Assembly: GCA_027081275.1 (NCBI GenBank)
Contig: JALWKV010000152.1
Span: 70,820 to 108,356, forward strand
Direction: 5' to 3'
DNA: 37,537 bases
Origin: Gammaproteobacteria bacterium
GTDB taxonomy: Bacteria > Pseudomonadota > Gammaproteobacteria > UWMA-0217
The stretch's first letter is position 1. Each line of letters starts with the position of its first letter. The position numbers and the translations under genes were made by a program. Below, one piece after another: positions 9,706 through 35,016 of this stretch. The notes beneath the pieces were generated by a model, which saw only the letters and a list, made by a program, of their open reading frames with translations, was not told where the DNA came from and did not search any database.

Positions 9706-10631
9706 AGGTGGCGGTCTGTATCTGTACCTGCCGGCGCCCGGAGGGGCTGGAACGGCTGCTGCGGGCGCTGGCCCGTCTCGACTGGTCGGAACGGCTGGAG
9801 ATCGTCGTTGTCGACAATGATGAAGCCGAGGCGGGCAGGCACGTCTGTGAGCGGCTGCTGGCGGAGGGTTACCGTTGGCCGCTCAGTCATGCCCTTGAGC
9901 CGCAACGGGGTATTTCCCCCGCGCGCAACCGGGCCGTGGCCATGGCGCTGGCGAAAAACGTCGATTTCATCGCCATGCTCGATGACGATGAATGGCCCGA
10001 GCGGCAGTGGCTGGCGGAGCTGATCCGCGTACAGCGTGAGCAGGGGGCGGACCTGGTGGGTGGTCCGGTGTTGCCGCAGCTGCCTGTCTCGAGAGCGTCC
10101 TGGGTCGATGTCGCGGTGGATGAGTGTTACGGCGCCGACCAGAAACTGCCCGATGGCGCGCCCTGCGAGCTCTGGGCCAGCGGAAATTTCCTTGGCCGGT
10201 CCGGTTGTTTCGCGGTGCTGATGCCGGAAGTCTTTCGCGTCGAATTCGGGCTCAGTGGCGGTGAGGATCTCGAGTTCTTCCGGCGGTTGGGCGCGATGGG
10301 GTACACGATGCACTGGGCGGCGAACGCGGTGGCCCATGAAGCGGTGCCGGAAAGCCGGATGACGATCGACTGGGTCAGAAGACGGATGGTGCTGAAGGGA
10401 AATACGCAGGTCCGTCTTTTTCGTCTGCATGCGCCGGGCGGGCTGGCGGAAGCGGTACGCCTGGCGAAGACCGCGGCGCTGTTCGCCACCGGCTTCGGGC
10501 AGTACCTGCTGGGCTTGGCGAAACCCGAGATTCGCATGCGCGGACAACTGCGGCTGTGGCGCGCGCTGGGCAAGTTGCAGGCGCATGTCGGGCGTACGAT
10601 GACACGCCCGGAGCATATCGAAGGGCGCTAG
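9699..10631 (+). CDS. GT2 family glycosyltransferase, 3' end defined by MITE insertion
   Basis: This 310-residue cytoplasmic glycosyltransferase has a GT-A fold: strand VAVCICTCRRPEGL at the N-terminus, EIVVVDND near residues 34-41, PARNRA near 74-79 and the metal-binding acidic motif LDDDEW at 94-99. ELWASGNFL and GGEDLEFFRR near residue 190 correspond to the acceptor/catalytic region. The start ATG is preceded by CGGGAGG and overlaps the flippase stop. The TAG stop lies in the first bases of a palindromic element (10628-10811), so the native C-terminus may have been trimmed or changed by the insertion. The catalytic domain looks complete. Donor and acceptor are unknown. Confidence 0.85.
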   Translation: MVKVAVCICTCRRPEGLERLLRALARLDWSERLEIVVVDNDEAEAGRHVCERLLAEGYRWPLSHALEPQRGISPARNRAVAMALAKNVDFIAMLDDDEWPERQWLAELIRVQREQGADLVGGPVLPQLPVSRASWVDVAVDECYGADQKLPDGAPCELWASGNFLGRSGCFAVLMPEVFRVEFGLSGGEDLEFFRRLGAMGYTMHWAANAVAHEAVPESRMTIDWVRRRMVLKGNTQVRLFRLHAPGGLAEAVRLAKTAALFATGFGQYLLGLAKPEIRMRGQLRLWRALGKLQAHVGRTMTRPEHIEGR

Positions 10632-20942: not shown

Positions 20943-21803
20943 TCAGTAGAGCAGGTTGAACATCTTGCGGCGATACCGCGCCACCAGCGGATCATCGCCG
21001 AGCATGTCGAAGACCTTGAGCAGCGTCTTGCGCGCCGCATCGTCGTTGAATTCGCGATCCTTCTGCATCAGCGTCAGCAGTTGCTGCATGGCCGCTTCGT
21101 ACTGCTTTTCGGCCAGCAGCTTTTGCGCCAGCCGAAAGCGGGTCTCGCTGTCGTCGGGATCGGCCTCGAGCCGTTGCGTCAGCTCGGCCACCGACTCGCC
21201 ATCTCCGGCGGCGCGGGCGAATTCAAGCTCGGCCAGTAGGGCGGCCACTTCGGGGCTGTCGCGGTCGGCGGCCGGGAGCGCGTTCAGCAGTTGCTCGGCC
21301 TGCTCGGCGTCGCCCCGCGCGGCCAGCAGCCGGGCCAGCGCCGTGATCACTTCCGGGCGGCGTGGATCGACCTCGCGCGCCTGCTGCAGCAGCGCCATCG
21401 CCTGATCCTCGTCACCGGCGGCGAGCGCCTCCTCGGCCGCGACCAGCAGGCGGTCGGACTCACGCTCGATATGCCGATCGAGAAATTCGCGCACCTGGCT
21501 TTCCGGCAGCGCGCCCATGAACTCGTCGACCGGCATGCCATCCTTGAACAGCTTGACCGTCGGCAGACTGCGGACGCCGAACTGCTGCGCCAGACCCTGA
21601 TTCTCGTCGGAGTTGACCTTGGCGAGAATGAACTGGCCGCCGTATTCCTCGGCCAGCTTCGACAGAACCGGCATCAGCGCGCGGCAGGGCGCGCACCAGT
21701 CGGCCCAGAAATCCACCAGCACCGGCTGCTGCCGCGAGCCTTCGATGACGACCTGATTGAAGTTTTCGGCGTTGACGACCTTGATGAACGGAGAATCAGC
21801 CAT
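20943..21803 (-). CDS. ybbN: Co-chaperone YbbN/CnoX: thioredoxin domain plus TPR
   Basis: This 286-residue cytoplasmic protein has an N-terminal thioredoxin domain (residues 1-110) and C-terminal tetratricopeptide-type helices. The active-site motif is DFWADWCAPC with C37 and C40, so the redox-active CxxC is present, unlike E. coli CnoX, whose motif is SxxC. The cis-proline segment VRSLPTVKLFKDG and the TPR region (LLVAAEEALAAGDEDQAMA, RLLAARGDAEQAEQLL) follow the family order and length. CnoX proteins protect substrates from over-oxidation and pass them to GroEL and DnaK. The start ATG follows AGGAAC. The gene precedes the repeat-rich spacer and follows a TIGR02647 gene on the same strand. 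Confidence 0.92.
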   Translation of the reverse strand: MADSPFIKVVNAENFNQVVIEGSRQQPVLVDFWADWCAPCRALMPVLSKLAEEYGGQFILAKVNSDENQGLAQQFGVRSLPTVKLFKDGMPVDEFMGALPESQVREFLDRHIERESDRLLVAAEEALAAGDEDQAMALLQQAREVDPRRPEVITALARLLAARGDAEQAEQLLNALPAADRDSPEVAALLAELEFARAAGDGESVAELTQRLEADPDDSETRFRLAQKLLAEKQYEAAMQQLLTLMQKDREFNDDAARKTLLKVFDMLGDDPLVARYRRKMFNLLY

Positions 21804-22539: not shown

Positions 22540-25443
22540 ATGCCGACTGCCGTCAAGACGATTTTCCTGCTCCTGATCCTGCTGGCGTGGCCGCTGCTGT
22601 CGCCGGCCACCCCGGAATCCGACCAGGCGACATTCCGGCAGTGGATCAAGCAGATGAAGACGGTGCCGCGGGGGCCATTTCGCCGCATCCGCTGGTTCTG
22701 CAACGACGGCGAGATTCTCCCCCCGGAACCCTATGCCTGCGTGTCGCACGGCGGCGGCATCCAGCACGGCCAGTGGAGCGAGCGCACCGAACGGCTGCGC
22801 GCCGCCGGCTACCGCATCGCCAACGTGCTGGCCGAATATGCGCGTGACGACTCCGCCGCGGACGTCGATCGCGACCTGCTCAGGGAAATCCTGCTGGAAC
22901 GCTTTCTCGTCAATCGCGACAACGGCTGGATCTTCCGCCGCGCCCGCTTCTATCGCGGCGCGATCCAGCGCGAGGACGAGGCGCGGGGCGAGTCGGCGCT
23001 GGTGCGGCGCTTTGCGACGACCCTCGATGCCACGACGCGGGACTACCTGCTGCTGTGGGAAGCGACGCGACTGCTGCCGGGCAGGGCGGGGGGCGACCTG
23101 CTGGAGAAGATGCGTGACCTCGCCACACGGATCAACGAGCAGGACGAGGCATTCGCGACACTGCGCAGCAAGCTCCACGCCGCGCCGGTGGCCGGTGACG
23201 CCGCTGCCGTGCGCGACCATGCGGCGAGTGCCGGCAAGGCGGAATTGCAAGCCGACTACGAGACGCTGGCGCAGACCATCGATGCGTTGTTCGATCCCGG
23301 CCCGCTGGCCGGGCGGCTGCGCAAGGCAGCGCGCCGGGTGCATGTCGCCGGACTGCGTCGCGCGCTGCGTGATGCGGCCGCCGCCCGCGTGCGGGGTGAG
23401 TCGGCGCGAGCGCGGCTGGCCGACTGCGGTCGGCTGCTGCTGGCGCTTCATGAACGCCTCGACGCCGAGCCGTCGGCCGCCGTGCGCGAAGCGCTGCTGC
23501 GGCTCGGGCAGGCGATCGAAAAGGACGTATTCGTCAGCGCGAGCGAACTGCAGTCGCGGCTCGATGCGGCGACCCGGCGCGAGCGGCTCGGCTGGCTGAC
23601 CGACAGCGCCCGCGCGCTCGCCGGCGTCGGTCTGCTGACGTTGCGTGAATGGCGCGCGGTGCGGCAGAGCCTCTCCCGCCTCGAGGCGGACAGCGTTCCA
23701 CTCGCGCGCTATCGCGATGAGCTGAACTACCTCGGTCGCGCGCCGCGCTGGGCGTCGCAACTGATGCAGTACCAGTTCGGTCCGGCGGTGGAAAAATTCA
23801 GCGCCATCGAGCCGCTGGCGGCGCAGTTCATCCCGGCGCGATTGCGCGGCAGCCCGCTGGCGTTCTATGCGGCCGTGCTCGACTCGCTGCAGCGCGACGC
23901 CGATACGCTCGCCGGCGGCGGCAGCGAGCTGTTCGGCGAGCCGGTCGCCACCGGCCTGCGCGCCCTCAATGCCGGTCTGGCGCGGGGTCGTCTGCTGACG
24001 CCGCGGCCGGGGCAGCCGATGCAGGCCGACGGCATCTATCTGCTGCCGCAGACGACGGCCGAGCTGACGCCGGTCGCCGGCATCATCACGCTCGACGAGG
24101 GCAACACGTTGTCGCACGTGCAACTGCTGGCGGCCAATCTCGGCATTCCCAACGTGGTTGTCTCGTCCGATCTGCTGCCGCGCCTGCGCCGGCATCTCGG
24201 CGAGCGCGTCGTGCTGGCCGTCAGTCCCGGCGGCGTCGTCAGGATCGCCGCCGACGGGCCGCGCTGGGATGCGGTGTTCGAGCAGCAGGGCGTGCCCGAT
24301 TCGCCGTTGCGGCCGGATCGCGACAAGCTCGATCTCTCGTTTCGCGATTTCATCTCGCTCGACCGGCTTCGCGCCAGCGACTCCGGCGTCATCGTCGGCC
24401 CGAAGGCGGCGAATCTCGGCGAGCTCAAGCATTTCTTTCCCGATGCCGTGGCCGATGGCGTCGCCATTCCGTTCGGCCGCTTTCGCGCCTTTCTGGAGCG
24501 GCCGCTCGACGCCGAGGGCCGCACGCTGCTGAGCTGGATGCAGCGCTGGTATCGCTATCTCGACTCGCTGCCGGCGGAGAAGCGCAAGGCCGCCACCGAA
24601 AAGTTCCTCCATCAGATCCACGACTGGATCGAGCACGCCTCGCCCGGCGAGGCCTTTCGGGCCGAACTGGCCGATGCGCTGGAAAGGGTCTTCGGCGACA
24701 GCGAGGGGGTTCGACTGTTCGTCCGCTCCGACACCAACGTGGAGGATCTGCCGGGATTCACCGGCGCGGGCCTCAACCTCACCGTGCCGAACGTTGTCGG
24801 CATGGATGCGCTGATTCGCGCCGTCATGCGGGTCTGGGCCTCGCCATTCACCGCGCGGGCCTTCGCCTGGCGGCAGCAGCGCATGGCCGATCCGATCGAC
24901 GTCTATCCGTCGGTATTGTTACTGGAGACCGTCACCGTGGAGAAATCGGGCGTGCTGCTGACCTTCAACACGCTCGATGGCAGCGACGACTGGTTCACCG
25001 TCGCCGTCGCCCACGGCATCGGCGGCGCGGTGCAGGGCGAGTCGGCCGAGGAGCTCCTGGTTCGACGCGATGGCGGCGAGCTGCGCCTGCTCAACAGCGC
25101 CGCCAGCCCGACGATGCGCGTCGCCGGCCCCGATGGCGGGCTGGTGGAGGTTCCCGCGCCGCCGACCGATGCGGTGCTGACGCCGGAGGAGATCGACACG
25201 CTGCGGCGTCTCGTCGACAAGGTCGAAAAGGATCTGCCGCAGTTCGACGACAAGGGGCGGCCGACGCCCGCCGATATCGAGTTCGGCTTTCGCGACGGCA
25301 GGCTGGCGCTGTTCCAGATCAGGCCCTATCTGCGCAGCCGCCAGGCGCGGCGGAATCGCTACCTGCTGTCGCTGGACCGGAAAATGGCTGTCAATGAAAA
25401 CATCACCGTGGAGATGAACGCGGTGCCGGAGTCACTGCAATGA
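22540..25443 (+). CDS. Exported glucan-water-dikinase-like phosphotransferase (phosphohistidine domain + ATP-grasp)
   Basis: The 967-residue protein begins with a clear signal peptide (IFLLLILLAWPLLSPA, cleavage near 22-24). Residues 25-490 are mostly helical and match nothing I know. A phosphohistidine domain follows, with DEGNTLSHVQLLAANLGIP and H526 as the expected phospho-carrier. The C-terminal third is a PPDK-type ATP-binding domain: GPKAANLGELKHFF from G620, VAIPFGRF, then VRSDTNVEDLPGFTGAGL from V728 and VWASPFTARAF, ending in FQIRPY. The order His domain then ATP-grasp, the ALPFG-like motif and the NVEDL-GLxxxxPNV motif are those of plant glucan water dikinase; PpsA and PPDK have ATP-grasp first and a PEP-binding barrel, absent here. 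Its stop overlaps the next start by ATGA. Export implies an envelope substrate and an ATP source outside the cytoplasm. Reaction and substrate are inference. Confidence 0.8.
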   Translation: MPTAVKTIFLLLILLAWPLLSPATPESDQATFRQWIKQMKTVPRGPFRRIRWFCNDGEILPPEPYACVSHGGGIQHGQWSERTERLRAAGYRIANVLAEYARDDSAADVDRDLLREILLERFLVNRDNGWIFRRARFYRGAIQREDEARGESALVRRFATTLDATTRDYLLLWEATRLLPGRAGGDLLEKMRDLATRINEQDEAFATLRSKLHAAPVAGDAAAVRDHAASAGKAELQADYETLAQTIDALFDPGPLAGRLRKAARRVHVAGLRRALRDAAAARVRGESARARLADCGRLLLALHERLDAEPSAAVREALLRLGQAIEKDVFVSASELQSRLDAATRRERLGWLTDSARALAGVGLLTLREWRAVRQSLSRLEADSVPLARYRDELNYLGRAPRWASQLMQYQFGPAVEKFSAIEPLAAQFIPARLRGSPLAFYAAVLDSLQRDADTLAGGGSELFGEPVATGLRALNAGLARGRLLTPRPGQPMQADGIYLLPQTTAELTPVAGIITLDEGNTLSHVQLLAANLGIPNVVVSSDLLPRLRRHLGERVVLAVSPGGVVRIAADGPRWDAVFEQQGVPDSPLRPDRDKLDLSFRDFISLDRLRASDSGVIVGPKAANLGELKHFFPDAVADGVAIPFGRFRAFLERPLDAEGRTLLSWMQRWYRYLDSLPAEKRKAATEKFLHQIHDWIEHASPGEAFRAELADALERVFGDSEGVRLFVRSDTNVEDLPGFTGAGLNLTVPNVVGMDALIRAVMRVWASPFTARAFAWRQQRMADPIDVYPSVLLLETVTVEKSGVLLTFNTLDGSDDWFTVAVAHGIGGAVQGESAEELLVRRDGGELRLLNSAASPTMRVAGPDGGLVEVPAPPTDAVLTPEEIDTLRRLVDKVEKDLPQFDDKGRPTPADIEFGFRDGRLALFQIRPYLRSRQARRNRYLLSLDRKMAVNENITVEMNAVPESLQ

Positions 25444-27667: not shown

Positions 27668-28978
27668 ATGGCACAACCTGATAAGGAGCAAGTCCCTGAC
27701 GATCGTGGGGGCAAAACTGTCCCGATACTGCAATCGGGGCTGCTGTTTGTCAATTTCTTCCTCATCATCACGGCGCTCTACCAGCTCAAGCCCGCGAGCC
27801 GTTCGCAGATTCTGGAGGTGATCGGGGCGAAGGATCTGCCGTGGGTCTGGATCGGCTCGGCGCTGACGCTGTTCGTCTTCATCAATATCTACAACCGCGT
27901 GCTGCGGCGGGTGGGGCGGCTGCGCGTCGTGCTCGGCTCGGCGCTGCTGGCGATGGCGGCGCTGTTCGGTTTCCGGCTTGGGCTGGAGTCGGGCGGCGCG
28001 GTGGCGCCGATCGCCTTCTACATCTTCGTCGATCTGGTGGGCGTGATACTGGTGGAGTAGTTCTGGAGCCTGGCCGACAGCATCTACAGCACCCGCGACG
28101 GCAAGAACTGGTATGGCATGATCGGCACCGGCGGGCTCCTCGGCGGCATGACCGGCAGCGCGCTGGGCGCCGCGCTGATCCACTACACGCCGCTGCAGAC
28201 GCCCGATCTGCTGCTGGTGGGCGCCGGCATCATCGGCCTCATCTTCGCCATTACGCTGCTGCTCAGCCGTCGCGGCTACTATCGGCAGATGCAAGGCGCC
28301 GCCGATCGCATCAGCCACACGGCCTGGCCCTACCAGTCGAGCAGCAACCGTCGTCGCTATCTGCTGCTGATCGCCGGCGCGCTGCTGATGGCGCAGCTCG
28401 TCTCGCCGCTGGTGGAATTCCAGTTCATGCGAATCGTCGAGGTCAGCTTTCCGGAGCGCGAGGCGCGCACCGCCAGCCTCGCGCTGTTCTTCTCCGTGCT
28501 CAGCGGCTTTTCGATCTTCGTCAATCTGCTGATCACGCCGCTGATCCTCAATCGCCTCGGCGTGCTCGCCGGCCTGCTGGCGCAGCCGCTGATGCTGGCC
28601 GCCTCGACGCTCGGTTTCATGGCGCAGGGCGGCTTCATCTCGGCCGCCGTGATGAAGATCGGCGACCGTGGCCTGTCGTACTCCATCACCCGCTCCGCGC
28701 GGGAACTGCTCTACATCCCCGTCGATCAGCTCGTCATGTATCAGGCCAAGGCATGGATCGACATGTTCGGCTACCGCAGCTTCAAGGTCGTCGGCGCCGC
28801 CATCATTCTCGTGCTGACGCAGTGGACGACGCTCGCGCAGGATCTGCTCAGCCTCAACTGGGTGATCCTGATCTCCTGCGGGATATGGATGCTGCTGCTG
28901 GTGGCGCTGCATCGCCACTACGAGATGCTGGTGCGGCCGGTTCCGGCCAGCGTCGGGCAGCCGGCGGCGATGCGGTGA
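27668..28978 (+). pseudogene. Npt/Tlc-like nucleotide transporter (MFS-type) with in-frame amber codon
   Basis: The reading frame from ATG 27668 encodes a 12-helix-type membrane protein of 436 codons that is broken once by TAG at 28058-28060 (codon 131). The sequence across it is FVDLVGVILVE-stop-FWSLADSIYSTRDGKNWYG; in related transporters this position reads VEQFWSL, so one C-to-T change in CAG explains the stop. Both halves are otherwise intact and in the same frame. The N-terminal LYQLKPASRSQ and the GTGGLLGGMTGSALG loop suggest the Npt1/Npt2 (ATP:ADP antiporter-like) group; a general MFS carrier is the alternative. An ATG at 28118 could re-initiate a 286-residue C-terminal part. Divergent from the second serine hydrolase. 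May be a pseudogene, a suppressed stop or a sequence error. Confidence 0.7.
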
Positions 28979-29722: not shown

Positions 29723-30862
29723 ATGAGCGCACAAACTATCGATCTCTTTGTTTTTATTGACGGCCTTGGCTGGGAGATCTACCGGGCGCATCCGTGGTTT
29801 TTGAAAGATCACGCGCCCTACGCCAAACCCGTCGAGTCGATTCTGGGTTATTCCAACGCCTGCATTCCCTCGATTCTTTGTGGCCGGATGCCCGATGAGC
29901 ATTTGCATTGGTCGAGTTATTACTATTCGCCGCTGAACAGCCCGTTCGCGGATATCGCCCTGGCGGGCCGCGTACCCCGAATCCTCCGAAGCGTTGGCCG
30001 GATCAATCGACTCTATCTGGCCTATCTGAAGCGATCCGCTGGTTTTGACGGTTATTTCGACGCCTACGATATTCCCCGGTGGAAACTGAAGCGGCTGGAT
30101 TATTACGAGAAGCAGGATCTATTTCAGCCGCAAGCCTATAACGGTTGGGACAACGTGTTTGCCGCCTGGCGGCGTCAGGGCAAAGCCTGGCTATGTCTCT
30201 CCGACGGGGATGATGACAGCAAGCTGCATCAGCTCCAGCGCGAGGCGGCGACAAGGCGCCTCCCGGAGAAAGCCTATCTGCACCTCAACGGGCTCGATGG
30301 CCTGTTGCATCAATATCCGCACGCTTCTTCGCCCGTGGCGAACTGTCTCTCGGCCTACCAATCGAAGCTGGACGCCGTGCTGGGTGGACTGAAATCACAG
30401 GGTATCCCGTGCCGGCTCAAGGTATTTTCCGATCATGGCATGTGTCGGGTCGGCGCGACGGTTGACATTGCGCGGCTGCTCGCCGGGCTGGATCTCGACA
30501 CGCCGGGAGACTATTTCGCCTTTCTCGACGCCACCATGGCGAGATTCTGGTTCGCCAATGACCGTGCGAAAGAAAAAGTGATCGACCGGCTCGCCGGGCT
30601 GGCCGATGGCCGGTGGCTGGCAGTGGAAGAACGCAAGGCCCACGGCCTTGATCCCGAGGCGGTGGGTTTCTATGGAGAAGAGATTTTTCTTCTCAACCCT
30701 GGAGCGGTGATCGAGCCGAACGACCTTTCCCGCAAAGCCCCTTATGGCATGCATGGCTATGATCCCGCCCACAAGGATAGCTTCGCCGTGCTGTTGAGTT
30801 CGGATCAGTTATCGAATGAGCCAATGCGGATTACTGACATTTTTCAGTCTGATTTTGTTTAG
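29723..30862 (+). CDS. Alkaline-phosphatase-superfamily phosphodiesterase/pyrophosphatase-like protein
   Basis: The 379-residue protein has the metal-binding pattern of type I phosphodiesterases: FVFIDGLGW at 9-17 (D13), a nucleophile segment GYSNACIPSILCGRMP at 42-57, FSDHGM with D237 and H238, and GMHGYDPAHKDSFAV near residue 345 carrying the last metal histidine. No signal peptide or membrane helix is visible, so it is probably cytoplasmic. Family members cleave phosphodiester or pyrophosphate bonds, or transfer phospho-groups. It lies 19 bases after the acetyltransferase, suggesting one operon, and converges with the flippase gene with a 4-base overlap. In this locus it may act on a sugar nucleotide or a phospho-substituent of a surface glycan; the substrate is not evident. 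Confidence 0.75.
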   Translation: MSAQTIDLFVFIDGLGWEIYRAHPWFLKDHAPYAKPVESILGYSNACIPSILCGRMPDEHLHWSSYYYSPLNSPFADIALAGRVPRILRSVGRINRLYLAYLKRSAGFDGYFDAYDIPRWKLKRLDYYEKQDLFQPQAYNGWDNVFAAWRRQGKAWLCLSDGDDDSKLHQLQREAATRRLPEKAYLHLNGLDGLLHQYPHASSPVANCLSAYQSKLDAVLGGLKSQGIPCRLKVFSDHGMCRVGATVDIARLLAGLDLDTPGDYFAFLDATMARFWFANDRAKEKVIDRLAGLADGRWLAVEERKAHGLDPEAVGFYGEEIFLLNPGAVIEPNDLSRKAPYGMHGYDPAHKDSFAVLLSSDQLSNEPMRITDIFQSDFV

Positions 30863-32337
30863 CCCCGCCTTTTCTCCGTGGCTTGCCCTTCAGCGACTCG
30901 GGGCTGGTAAACGCTGCCCGAGCGGAGAACCCTGAATATGGCCGCTGCCGTGTAAACCAGCATCAGCGCCGATGCGACCTTGTCGAGCCAGGATCTTTGC
31001 GCCGCCACCGCGATTAGCGTCAGACCCGCGAGGGGGATGGAATACATACCCGCTGTCGCAATGCCAGCGACAAACCCCCTCGCCAATACCTCTCTCTCGG
31101 GTCGATCCAGGCTGCGATTTTGTCGCGCCAGATACAGTAAATACATCGCACTGGTCATCGCCAGCGATAGCAGGATAAGCACGGCGTCGGTCAGCCCCGA
31201 GAGGAGCGCGATGAGAATGGGCGTGAAAAACAGGGCAAGCTGTATGATCGGGAAGTTCACCATTCGCTCCCGCATCATGGCTCGGTATTGTAGCGGCTCC
31301 ATGACGAGCCGTAGCCCGAAATAACTCGCGGTCACGATGATCAAAACCGTACTGGATTGGAGAAAGCGCAGATTGTCGGGCAGGTTCTCTGCCCTGATGA
31401 ACGTCAGCGGGCCCAGCAAGCTGACGACCGATAGCGCGTAGGCGGCGACCAGCGTCCGCGTGGCCAGCCGGGTTGCGACCGGGCGCGTCTCGGTGAGGAT
31501 GTGCTGGTAGTAAGCGGGCGTCGCGCTTTTGATGATCAGATGGAGAAATTCGAATGCCCGGTAGACGATGGTCATTCGGGCGATCCGGGTCAGCACCGCA
31601 TCGGCGGCTTGCGCTTTGTCCATCGGGGCCGGCGACGCGCCGATGACCAGCAGCAAGGCGCGAAATCCAAAGCGCTGGCCGAGATTCAATAACCACTGGT
31701 TCAGCGAGATGCTGTACCGATGGCCGCCCTTGCGCCAACGGGATGTTTGATCTCCCGGCGTCCCCAAATGACGGAGAATATGGGGAAAGAAATACAGGGT
31801 TTCGGCGGCCTGCGTCAACAGGACGGCCCAGGCGATGCCCGCGACGCCAAAGCCCGCGCGGATGGCCAGCCAGATCAGCGTCAGCCGGAGCAGGGCCGTG
31901 AAGATTCTCAGAAGACCGACCTTGTGACTCTCGCCTCTGGCGAAAAAGACGCCTTGATAAACGCCATTCACATTGCTCAGGCCCTCCGCGCAGATGGCGA
32001 TAATCAGCGCCGCCGACAGAGGCGCCCGGACTGACCGGGTTGAATGGCTGAAGCTGAAATAAAGCGAGCCCAACAGGCTGAGCAGGACGATCCCCAGCCC
32101 ACTGTAAAGCATGATTTTCAGACTGTGCCAATGCTGTTCCGCCAGGTTCCCGTCGGCGACCGCGCGCTGCATCGATAAACTCAGCCCGAATTCGAATAGC
32201 GCCGTAAACGATGCAATACTGGAAACCAGTATCCAAAGACCATATTCAGCGGGAGTCAAAAGGGCAATAAAAACAGGCAGGGTGAGCGCGTTCAGCCCCA
32301 CGCCGATCATGTTGAGCAGGGCGGCGTGCCGTTTCAC
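30859..32337 (-). CDS. Wzx-like flippase / lipopolysaccharide biosynthesis membrane protein
   Basis: This is a 492-residue integral membrane protein with 12-14 hydrophobic segments. The N-terminal LTPAEYGLWILVSSIASFTALFEFGLSLSMQRAVADG is the standard MOP-superfamily entry (adjacent helices plus the small gly/leu motif of Wzx proteins). It starts with GTG at 32337 inside the stop of the upstream ligase gene (GTGA overlap), so the two are coupled. It presumably moves lipid-linked glycan across the inner membrane. It is distinct from the flippase at 8404-9705, so the window holds two separate glycan export systems. Confidence 0.82.
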   Translation of the reverse strand: MKRHAALLNMIGVGLNALTLPVFIALLTPAEYGLWILVSSIASFTALFEFGLSLSMQRAVADGNLAEQHWHSLKIMLYSGLGIVLLSLLGSLYFSFSHSTRSVRAPLSAALIIAICAEGLSNVNGVYQGVFFARGESHKVGLLRIFTALLRLTLIWLAIRAGFGVAGIAWAVLLTQAAETLYFFPHILRHLGTPGDQTSRWRKGGHRYSISLNQWLLNLGQRFGFRALLLVIGASPAPMDKAQAADAVLTRIARMTIVYRAFEFLHLIIKSATPAYYQHILTETRPVATRLATRTLVAAYALSVVSLLGPLTFIRAENLPDNLRFLQSSTVLIIVTASYFGLRLVMEPLQYRAMMRERMVNFPIIQLALFFTPILIALLSGLTDAVLILLSLAMTSAMYLLYLARQNRSLDRPEREVLARGFVAGIATAGMYSIPLAGLTLIAVAAQRSWLDKVASALMLVYTAAAIFRVLRSGSVYQPRVAEGQATEKRRG

Positions 32338-33557
32338 GCGGGCGCCAGCCCGTTCAGGCGTTCGCGTTTCAGCATGGCCGGAGCGGCGGTGAGTATGCCG
32401 AGGTAAGGGAACAGGAGGGACATGATGGCGCTCCGCCGCAGCGAATCCTCAAGCATGCTCTGCAGTAGCAACAGACAGGTGGCCAGGATCATGCCGAGCA
32501 AGAAGTACTTTCGCCAGTCGGAGTCGGCCATGCGATGTTGCGCGATCATCCCTTGGATCAGCGGGAAGATGAACAGCAAGCTGAAAATGATCATGCCTCC
32601 AACCCCGGTTTCCGCCATCATCAGAAGAAAAGCGTTGTGCGCCGGGGGAAGATCATCATGAAAATGCACTGCCGCGAAATGCTCGGTATCGTAGGTGCGG
32701 GCGGCGAGTGAATAGTTGTTGATTCCGACCCCAGTAACGTAGTCGAGGCCCATCTTGATTGCAAGCGCATCCATTTCTGCGCGTCCCCCACCTGATAGCA
32801 CGCCGTGTTCGAGACGTTCAACGAAGGTATCGGATGCCTTGAATCCAATCGGAATGGAGAGCGCCATGAGTATTAGGCCCCAACGCAACGCCTTGTTGGC
32901 GTGGTGCAGCGAGAGATCTACCAAAATACAGAGAATGCCAATGAGCATTAACGCGAGTGCTGATCGAGATACGGACAGAATGGCGCCGAGCGAGATCAGA
33001 AAGGTGGGTACGGCGATAACAAACGGTCGAATACTAGACCGGCGCCGATGAGTGACAAGCAGAAACATGAGCGGCATGGAAACAACGATAACAAAGCTGC
33101 CCATCAGGTTGGGGTGATGGAGAAAAGCCGACACGCGATAGACGCCCAGGACATAGCGATCCCAGAGAAAACTCATGCCGTGTAACGTCGCGATCAATAG
33201 CAGTGCGACCAATGTCGCTTCAAGTCTCCTGTTTGTGATATTGCCGGCAAAAACGGCTAGTACCATACCAAACTTCGCCATTTCAAAAATGGCATAATAA
33301 CTGTTGATATGGCGACTGATTGGTGCATTCAGCACCGAGATCGCAAGGGTGGCAAGAAACAGAAGGAAGATCCCGCCGAGGACTTGCGCCTCGAGTGGGG
33401 GTTTGTTAACAATAGTTTTCAATAAGAGCGGTAGATAGATCAGGTCAGCAACTTGTATGGTGAAACCGAACACGGTTCCGCGATAATGGTCTTCCTGGGC
33501 GGTAAAGGTAATGCCAAGGTGAGTGGTGAATGTCGAGGTCACAAGTGCTGCGACCAA
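32334..33557 (-). CDS. O-antigen ligase / Wzy family membrane protein, N-terminus probably truncated
   Basis: The 407-residue frame encodes about 10 membrane helices and the family loop (FHDDLPPAHNAFLLMMAETG near residues 298-317), with the conserved DYVTGVGINNYSLAAR just before it. It could be a polymerase or ligase. The recognisable sequence begins abruptly: TTHLGITFTAQEDHYRGTV at residues 11-29 looks like the loop after a first helix that is not there. The ORF start at 33557 lies inside the truncated start of cas8e on the other strand, so the two genes overlap head to head by 35 bases. This suggests a deletion or rearrangement joined them. It overlaps and probably drives the flippase gene downstream. 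Confidence 0.75.
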   Translation of the reverse strand: MVAALVTSTFTTHLGITFTAQEDHYRGTVFGFTIQVADLIYLPLLLKTIVNKPPLEAQVLGGIFLLFLATLAISVLNAPISRHINSYYAIFEMAKFGMVLAVFAGNITNRRLEATLVALLLIATLHGMSFLWDRYVLGVYRVSAFLHHPNLMGSFVIVVSMPLMFLLVTHRRRSSIRPFVIAVPTFLISLGAILSVSRSALALMLIGILCILVDLSLHHANKALRWGLILMALSIPIGFKASDTFVERLEHGVLSGGGRAEMDALAIKMGLDYVTGVGINNYSLAARTYDTEHFAAVHFHDDLPPAHNAFLLMMAETGVGGMIIFSLLFIFPLIQGMIAQHRMADSDWRKYFLLGMILATCLLLLQSMLEDSLRRSAIMSLLFPYLGILTAAPAMLKRERLNGLAPA

Positions 33558-35016
33558 TTTTCGCGGCGCCCTCTACCAGTTTCTCATTGGCCTGCTACAG
33601 ACCGCATTCGCACCGGAAAACCTCAGGGAATGGCGGCGCTGGTGGCGAGAACCGCCCGATGCGGAAACCCTGGATCAAGCCTTCGCCCCCTACGAACGGG
33701 CCTTCGAAATCTTCTCGGCCATCGGCGAACCGGCTTTCATGCAGGATCTGACACTGGATGAGGGCGAAGAAAAAGAAATCGCCGCTTTGTTCGTCGAAGC
33801 GCCGGGCGGCAAGACCCTGCGCGACAACCAGGATCATTTCGTCAAGCGCGGCGGCATCGAGAAACTATCGCCGGAGATGGCCGCCCTGGCGCTGTTCACT
33901 CTGCAGATCAATGCGCCAGCCGGAGGCGTGGGCCACCGCGTTTCGGTGCGTGGCGGCGGGCCGCTGACCACGCTGGTGCTGCCACCGGAGAACAGCGAAG
34001 GTGACTGCTTGTGGCGGCGCTTGTGGCTCAATGTGCTGACGCGGGATGAACTTCAGCAACTCCCCGGCGACCACGAAAATAACGCCATTGGAAAAATCTT
34101 TCCCTGGATGGCCCCGACCCGCATCAGCGAAAAGAAAGGGATGGAAACCTACCCGGAACACGCCCACCCGTTGCAGGTGTACTGGCCCATGCCCCGGCGC
34201 ATGCGCCTGCTGCCATCGGACCATGAGGGGCACTGCGACCTCACCGGTCAAGCCGCTTCCAGCCTGGTGAATCGTTACCTCACCAAAAACTACGGCATCA
34301 ATTACGCGGGCCACTGGCAGCACCCCTTGACCCCTTATGTTCTCGAAGCGGACAAGGAGCCGCTTTCCATCAAGGCGCAGCACGGTGGGCTGGGCTATCG
34401 CCATTGGCTGGGGCTGGCGGTCACCGCGCAACAGGGCAAGCTCACCCGAGCCCCGGCGCTGGTAGTGCGCTGTTATGGCGATCGGCAGAACCGCATGGCG
34501 GAACTCGATTTCCAACCTCGCTTGTGGGCTTTTGGCTATGACATGGACAACATGAAAGCGCGCTGCTGGTACGAAGCCGAAATGCCGCTGTTCAATCTCG
34601 ATCAAGACGAGCGGGATGACATTGCCGAGTATGCAAAGAGAATGATCGAAGCCGCCACCGATGCGCTCAAGACCCTAAAGTCCGCGCTGAAAAACGCCTG
34701 GTTCGATCGCCCCAAGGACGCGAAGGGCGACATGTCCTTTATCGACGCCAATTTCTGGTCCGCCACCGAGGCGCCGTTCTACCGCTTGCTGCAGCAACTG
34801 GTCGACCGACTCGACGACGAAGACGCCATCGACGCGTTGTTAAAAAAGTGGGCCGGCATCCTGAGGGACGAAGCTCGGAAACTGTTCGATCAATACGCCC
34901 TCTCCAGCCTGAACGAGGACGGCGACCTCAAGCGCGTCGTCAAGGCGCGTGACGGCAAGGGCGGACTCAATCACCACCTCAATGGCAGCCGCGCGCTGAA
35001 AAACCTGGCGGCCTGA
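33523..35016 (+). CDS. casA: Type I-E Cascade large subunit Cas8e (Cse1/CasA), N-terminally truncated
   Basis: The 497-residue frame carries the Cse1 family from FRGALYQFLIGLLQTAFAP onward, with EPAFMQDL, the zinc-site-region equivalents and the C-terminal helical bundle (KLFDQYALSSL). Full-length homologs start about 40-45 residues earlier with the motif (D)PWIPV, and this part cannot be found in any plus-strand frame upstream. The first about 12 codons (MVNVEVTSAAT) look like fortuitous sequence from the neighbouring ligase gene. Cas8e recognises the PAM and recruits Cas3. Loss of the N-terminus probably disables the gene unless another start works. The cas3 gene usually found upstream is absent. 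Confidence 0.85.
   Translation: MVNVEVTSAATNFRGALYQFLIGLLQTAFAPENLREWRRWWREPPDAETLDQAFAPYERAFEIFSAIGEPAFMQDLTLDEGEEKEIAALFVEAPGGKTLRDNQDHFVKRGGIEKLSPEMAALALFTLQINAPAGGVGHRVSVRGGGPLTTLVLPPENSEGDCLWRRLWLNVLTRDELQQLPGDHENNAIGKIFPWMAPTRISEKKGMETYPEHAHPLQVYWPMPRRMRLLPSDHEGHCDLTGQAASSLVNRYLTKNYGINYAGHWQHPLTPYVLEADKEPLSIKAQHGGLGYRHWLGLAVTAQQGKLTRAPALVVRCYGDRQNRMAELDFQPRLWAFGYDMDNMKARCWYEAEMPLFNLDQDERDDIAEYAKRMIEAATDALKTLKSALKNAWFDRPKDAKGDMSFIDANFWSATEAPFYRLLQQLVDRLDDEDAIDALLKKWAGILRDEARKLFDQYALSSLNEDGDLKRVVKARDGKGGLNHHLNGSRALKNLAA

Follow-up and report, generated by a model that had tools for sequence, protein, structure and literature searches.

A predicted exported dikinase of the glucan, water dikinase (GWD) type is encoded in a 37,537-nucleotide stretch of DNA from a Gammaproteobacteria bacterium (contig JALWKV010000152.1), referred to here in its full length as the window. 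Using sequence analysis and structure prediction, we found that its gene belongs to a four-gene cluster, together with those for two exported serine enzymes (BL1 and BL2) and a nucleotide transporter (NTT) of the ATP/ADP type. The cluster is conserved and apparently undescribed, and the transporter is its most telling member. The best overall explanation, which we consider moderately probable, is that the secreted dikinase is fed with ATP by the NTT and places the β-phosphate on an acceptor in the cell envelope. A preliminary description of this DNA had proposed an exported glycan dikinase; the conserved neighbourhood was absent from it, above all the nucleotide transporter, which would solve the supply of ATP outside the cytoplasm.

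Domain organization and conservation of the dikinase

The dikinase open reading frame (ORF) starts with ATG, and the ORF, the S525-H526-V527 motif and VRSDTNVEDLPG (residues 728-739) are located where the preliminary description had placed them (Table 1). Pfam returned two matches for the whole protein and no others: PPDK_N (PF01326) at residues 618-938 (E=8.9e-34), and the phosphohistidine domain of phosphoenolpyruvate (PEP)-utilising enzymes (PF00391) at residues 502-547 (E=1.8e-4, slightly below the curated cut-off). The isolated phosphohistidine domain matched PF00391 above the cut-off (E=2.2e-5). The phosphohistidine domain lies N-terminal to the ATP-grasp domain, as in GWD and the related plant enzyme PWD. 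PpsA and PPDK have the ATP-grasp domain first, followed by the His domain and a PEP barrel; in the dikinase this order is reversed and Pfam found no barrel. The GWD-like order without a PEP barrel had been read correctly from the sequence at the outset. Of the profiles involved, PF01326 and PF00391 were recovered, whereas the GWD profile GWD1_pHisD (PF22973) had no match in the window dikinase and reached only E=0.071 in a single homologue. In a Foldseek search the ATP-grasp domain matched the ATP domain of rifampin phosphotransferase (RPH; 5hv6) with a TM-score of 0.85-0.86 by target length.

The N-terminal ~450 residues were modelled by AlphaFold2 with confidence when folded alone (pLDDT 89.9, pTM 0.84). 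They match no Pfam family up to E≤10, and the model has no fold match in the PDB at E<0.001. The domain is therefore not recognisable as a carbohydrate-binding module, and hence suggests no substrate. No Pfam match to the starch- or glucan-binding modules CBM45 and CBM20 was found in the dikinase. Thus, export, domain order, active sites and GWD affinity in the earlier proposal held up, while its glycan acceptor gained no support, there being neither a carbohydrate-binding module nor a structural match for the N-terminal domain. A DUF3761-like motif suspected in the C..DG..C..HGGG segment was not reported by Pfam.

Residues H526, K622, R729, E735, D736, D912, E914, Q926 and R928 are invariant in 76/76 aligned homologues. 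Because these catalytic residues never vary, both active sites are under strict selection; as first described, the phosphohistidine and ATP-grasp sites are intact, with no ATP-binding residue lost. Homologues with 40-69% identity, some of them partial at contig ends, are present in 16 of 143 related genomes, well beyond what chance would give. A single-protein scan of genome contigs for close relatives gave no match, but a profile scan of the same kind of data found at least 577 related stretches; the best 80 of these form the basis of the locus counts below. Among the groups represented in the 80 are Gammaproteobacteria, Zetaproteobacteria (Mariprofundus), Desulfobacterota and Burkholderiales/Rhodocyclaceae. 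Genomes from sediment, marine and groundwater sources predominate, and isolates are represented by Guyparkeria hydrothermalis, Parahaliea maris, Aestuariicella albida, Agaribacterium haliotis and Mariprofundus micogutta. The dikinase family is large and apparently undescribed.

Several divergent proteins were seen alongside the family. In one genome (G520, L120:9174-11300) the dikinase is shorter and apparently exported, keeps the His-then-ATP-grasp order and has a different N-terminal domain. A full-length homologue in G336 (L122:8554-11469) carries H526R, K622Q, R729L and E914R and retains C54, C67, W52 and E120; it is a pseudoenzyme. Second PpsA-like paralogues, in which the ATP-binding motifs are degenerate and the His region is partly retained, occur at two loci; in L002 (G000 contig 122) the GGK and RSSATAEDL blocks are lost, and in L144 RSSATAEDL reads RGSTTAVDV.

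Evidence for export

The dikinase begins with a typical signal peptide, MPTAVKTIFLLLILLAWPLLSPATPESDQ. A hydrophobic, signal-like N-terminal segment is present in 90% of 83 homologues, compared with 0/7 cytoplasmic PpsA-type controls. C54, C67, W52, Q75 and H76 are invariant in 76/76 homologues, and in 45 of these 76 C54 and C67 are the only two cysteines; cytoplasmic PpsA-type proteins of the same genomes contain 8-15. C54 and C67 presumably form a disulfide, and the cysteine pattern of the dikinase and BL1 fits a single disulfide in an oxidising compartment. The sequence evidence thus favours secretion to the periplasm or outer surface, in agreement with the preliminary description.

The signal-like N-terminus could instead be misleading, with the enzyme cytoplasmic, or membrane-tethered facing the cytoplasm, and acting on an internal glucan such as glycogen. 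Characterised dikinases do act inside cells or plastids. We nevertheless regard this as quite improbable given that the signal peptides are conserved family-wide, that the two invariant cysteines stand in a protein otherwise nearly free of cysteine, and that the dikinase stop overlaps by 4 bases the start of BL1, which is itself exported and has two invariant cysteines.

Relationship to plant GWD and to PpsA

For comparison with the plant enzymes, we used catalytic fragments of GWD and PWD that were not database entries and were validated by Pfam only; both match PPDK_N and GWD1_pHisD (PF22973; E=4.8e-36 and 1.5e-25). The tree comprised 31 rows, in which the phosphohistidine and ATP-grasp blocks were reordered into one order and from which PPDK and RPH were absent. 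The exported family, the shorter exported protein of G520 and the plant enzymes were separated from PpsA, phenylphosphate-synthase-type and PRK06241-type enzymes with branch support of 100/100, and a grouping of PpsA with the plant sequences was rejected (p-AU 3e-4). Given long branches and plant sequences validated in this way, this result places the exported family on the GWD side without establishing it as the exclusive sister of GWD. The affinity with GWD rather than PpsA that had been proposed is borne out to this extent, and the family does not fall inside PpsA.

The motifs are in keeping with this placement. Like plant GWD1 and PWD, the dikinase has the phosphohistidine domain upstream of the ATP-grasp domain and an SHV motif, and in alignments the exported family and the plant enzymes share LSHV as well as two motifs that were not found in PpsA, RSD(S/T)N.EDL.G(F/Y).GAGL and (A)(L/I)PFG.F. 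Unlike the plant enzymes, the exported family has an export signal and an unrelated N-terminal domain, and lacks a starch-binding module. It also keeps the PpsA-like order of ATP-grasp blocks, whereas the plant fragments used here have the RSDSN block behind the WAS block, and for this reason plant GWD looks permuted. PPDK_N matches the plant GWD fragment in two stretches. With PpsA, PPDK and RPH the dikinase shares the ATP-grasp fold and phosphohistidine chemistry, but those enzymes put the ATP-grasp domain first, and the dikinase has neither a PEP barrel nor a drug-binding domain. On the evidence of its sequence, the dikinase is a real, exported enzyme of the GWD side, and the exported family would offer a bacterial relative, free of the permutation, for the plant starch dikinases, which lack an experimental structure (PMC12892837).

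BL1, BL2 and the conserved cluster

BL1 lies near the dikinase in 74/80 loci, BL2 in 55/80 and the NTT in 51/80. When counting is confined to the 39 loci that extend 5 kb or more to each side, the corresponding numbers are 37, 33 and 29. No fifth conserved neighbour was found across the 80 loci; ABC, pyruvate kinase and symporter-like genes turned up here and there. Gene order and strand vary within the cluster; linkage has therefore been retained through rearrangement. In four Mariprofundus loci (L100, L108, L109 and L112) BL2 is a tandem duplicate and the NTT does not adjoin the cluster.

The alignment of BL1 revealed invariant SVGK (S121/K124), SSN (202-204) and KSG (339-341) motifs and cysteines C346 and C354, and that of BL2 invariant SLPK (S101/K104), SSN (137-139) and KSG (253-255) motifs. 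Neither alignment contains an invariant glutamate, the omega-loop general base, in the region after SSN. Because SxxK, SSN and KSG are kept without this glutamate, BL1 and BL2 resemble D,D-peptidases and not β-lactamases.

This distinction bears on the idea that the cluster is a periplasmic drug-inactivation island, in which an RPH-like dikinase would work with two β-lactamase-like enzymes. Structurally, the ATP-grasp domain matches RPH best, and both BL1 and BL2 match PF13354. The RPH match is, however, limited to that domain, RPH has its ATP-grasp domain first, and the glutamate that class A β-lactamases need after SSN is not invariant in either protein. Most of the loci, moreover, belong to genomes of sediment, marine or groundwater origin, and no match was found among 72,556 plasmids. 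We consider such an island highly improbable.

The penicillin-binding protein (PBP)-type active sites of BL1 and BL2 would also suit a dikinase that acts as a ligase like PigC or RedH, its phosphorylated intermediate driving a condensation, e.g. a peptidoglycan cross-link, for which BL1 and BL2 prepare or trim peptides. The ligases RedH and PigC are indeed among the NCBIfam matches. These matches are confined to the ATP-grasp part, though, domain order and tree point to GWD and not to the ATP-first dikinases, and no ligase-type acceptor domain was recognised, which makes a ligase rather unlikely.

The NTT and its co-occurrence with the dikinase

The fourth gene encodes a transporter of the TLC family. 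Its orthologues in L028, L029, L032 and L037 match PF03219 above the cut-off (E to 2.6e-24), and a profile search matched NTT orthologues to the solved ADP,ATP carriers 9j3n (E=3.3e-28) and 9j3j (E=3.3e-17). The window copy matches PF03219 above the cut-off in its C-terminal part, and the family profile with E=4.6e-161 and one TAG inside. The NTT is predicted from sequence to transport ATP/ADP. It belongs to the same family as the TLC/NTT transporters of plastids, Chlamydia and Rickettsia, but represents a divergent subfamily of free-living bacteria that is tied to the exported dikinase. Some loci have an additional or substitute NTT paralogue to which HEAT repeats or a cNMP-binding domain are fused, and MFS/TLC-like proteins that are very long and contain cNMP-binding or HEAT domains adjoin the dikinase in L063:4663-7824, L094:4551-7904, L029:565-2757 and L115:6669-8894. 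Major et al. 2017 described NTTs, including HEAT and cNMP-binding fusions, in free-living bacteria and left their roles open; by their account, the NTTs studied by experiment represent a small fraction of NTT diversity (PMC5381601).

The dikinase and the NTT co-occur across genomes. Among 144 related genomes, a TLC gene is present in 17/17 dikinase genomes (14 families) and in 9/127 others (Fisher p=6e-16), and among 398 genomes of the phylum in 16/16 with a close homologue and in 17/382 others (p=8e-20); both p-values ignore shared ancestry, and the second is inflated since 13 of its 16 dikinase genomes are one genus. In a third set of ten genomes, chosen for having no NTT or only a weak match adjoining the dikinase, all ten (10/10) have an NTT somewhere in the genome. 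The three sets overlap by a few genomes, hence the distinct total is at least 38 and not 43. No TLC gene was found in 14 well-known control genomes (0/14). Four distant homologues were also examined. The NTT adjoins the dikinase in G226, and no NTT was found in G520, which has the shorter dikinase, or in G206. In the single-contig genome G336, catalytic residues and NTT are absent together.

Proposed mechanism

ATP would cross the inner membrane to the periplasm through the NTT encoded by the adjacent gene. The ATP-grasp domain would use it to phosphorylate H526 of the swivelling domain, releasing AMP and phosphate, and the phosphohistidine would then hand the β-phosphate to an acceptor bound at the N-terminal domain. 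AMP or ADP would return to the cytoplasm. The acceptor would most likely be an envelope polymer or oligosaccharide; peptidoglycan is the first guess because BL1 and BL2 have penicillin-binding-type D,D-peptidase active sites, and their own role would be sought in the same pathway. As the dikinase product is AMP, the scheme predicts that this NTT subfamily accepts AMP. We give about an even chance to the stronger form of this proposal, namely deliberate ATP export, in which a GWD-like dikinase is secreted, receives ATP from a dedicated translocator and phosphorylates an envelope polymer, making up an ATP-driven pathway of periplasmic modification. Fam20-type kinases of eukaryotes act in the secretory pathway, where ATP is imported into the endoplasmic reticulum and Golgi. 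They would work alike, as exported ATP-using enzymes fed by a nucleotide transporter, although the proteins are unrelated and the chemistry is different.

The NTT might instead be an importer. The cluster would then scavenge periplasmic nucleotides or phosphorylated compounds, and the dikinase would use extracellular ATP or, running in reverse, make it for uptake. PPDK-type reactions are reversible, which would allow this. Every functionally characterised NTT, moreover, comes from parasites or plastids and serves uptake (PMC5381601). Free-living organisms, on the other hand, make their own ATP, GWD-type reactions are driven forwards by the release of AMP and phosphate, and the cluster contains no conserved nucleotidase or phosphatase. 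We therefore consider an importer unlikely.

Besides the limits on the p-values given above, several points weigh against a dikinase fed by the NTT. Activity, direction of transport and acceptor are matters that we infer. Characterised NTTs import ATP or swap it for ADP, whereas the dikinase yields AMP. Some genomes have NTTs without the dikinase, and G206, a 97% complete draft, has a divergent dikinase with intact catalytic residues and BL1, with no NTT found. The window NTT itself is interrupted by an in-frame amber TAG at 28058-28060, where relatives have glutamine (VLVEQFWSL), and no second NTT was found in its genome.

The frame of the window NTT is otherwise open and well conserved, and intact copies of the NTT and dikinase genes are present in other genomes. 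A recent nonsense mutation, a polymorphism or an error of assembly could each account for the amber codon. Recoding of TAG was considered and judged unlikely because the neighbouring BL1 ends in TAG at the expected place. In G001, the nearest relative and a member of the same genus, an in-frame TAG interrupts the dikinase orthologue (L024 near 10126-10128), which brings the amber codons seen in clusters of this genus to two.

Features of the window

The coordinates of the cluster are collected in Table 1. Its flanks in the window encode a thioredoxin-TPR protein (20943-21803), a type I phosphodiesterase-like protein (29723-30862), an O-antigen-ligase-like membrane protein (32334-33557) and CRISPR Cse1 (33523-35016), none of which is conserved with the cluster.

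Table 1. Features of the dikinase cluster, in window coordinates.
Feature	Position	Strand	Basis
Exported GWD-like dikinase, 967 aa	22540..25443	+	ORF/translation; Pfam; 76-row alignment; AlphaFold2 (pLDDT 89.0, pTM 0.85)
Signal peptide, ~residues 1-23	22540..22608	+	N-terminal sequence; hydrophobic segment in homologues
N-terminal, mostly helical domain, residues 25-475; presumed acceptor binding	22612..23964	+	AlphaFold2
Two-cysteine motif GPF..RIRWFCxDG..PP.PYAC..HGGG.QHG, residues 45-79 (C54, C67)	22672..22776	+	Alignment of 76
Phosphohistidine (swivelling) domain, residues 465-572; H526 codon 24115-24117	23932..24255	+	PF00391; H526 invariant
PPDK-type ATP-grasp domain, residues 618-938; VRSDTNVEDLPG at 24721-24756	24391..25353	+	PF01326; Foldseek
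BL1, exported PBP/class-A-fold serine enzyme, 422 aa	25440..26708	+	PF13354 (E=4.4e-6)
BL2, second exported PBP/class-A-fold serine enzyme, 310 aa	26742..27674	-	PF13354 (E=3.3e-19)
NTT, TLC-family nucleotide (ATP/ADP) transporter	27668..28978	+	PF03219 matches of orthologues; solved carriers

Significance

Among openly available papers that deal with periplasmic dikinases, the export of ATP or the structure of NTTs, we found none that describes an exported dikinase/NTT system. By the usual teaching, the periplasm contains no ATP. This rule can be put to a direct test, since every examined genome with a close homologue combines a secreted ATP-dependent enzyme with a transporter of the ATP/ADP type. 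Two serine hydrolases of ordinary appearance and an N-terminal fold without a known match also gain a candidate pathway. If ATP does reach the periplasm in these organisms, the system as a whole would be of a new kind for bacteria. It would also provide a concrete function, left open by Major et al. 2017 (PMC5381601), for NTTs in organisms living outside hosts: envelope chemistry in free-living bacteria may be powered by ATP that they move out of the cytoplasm.

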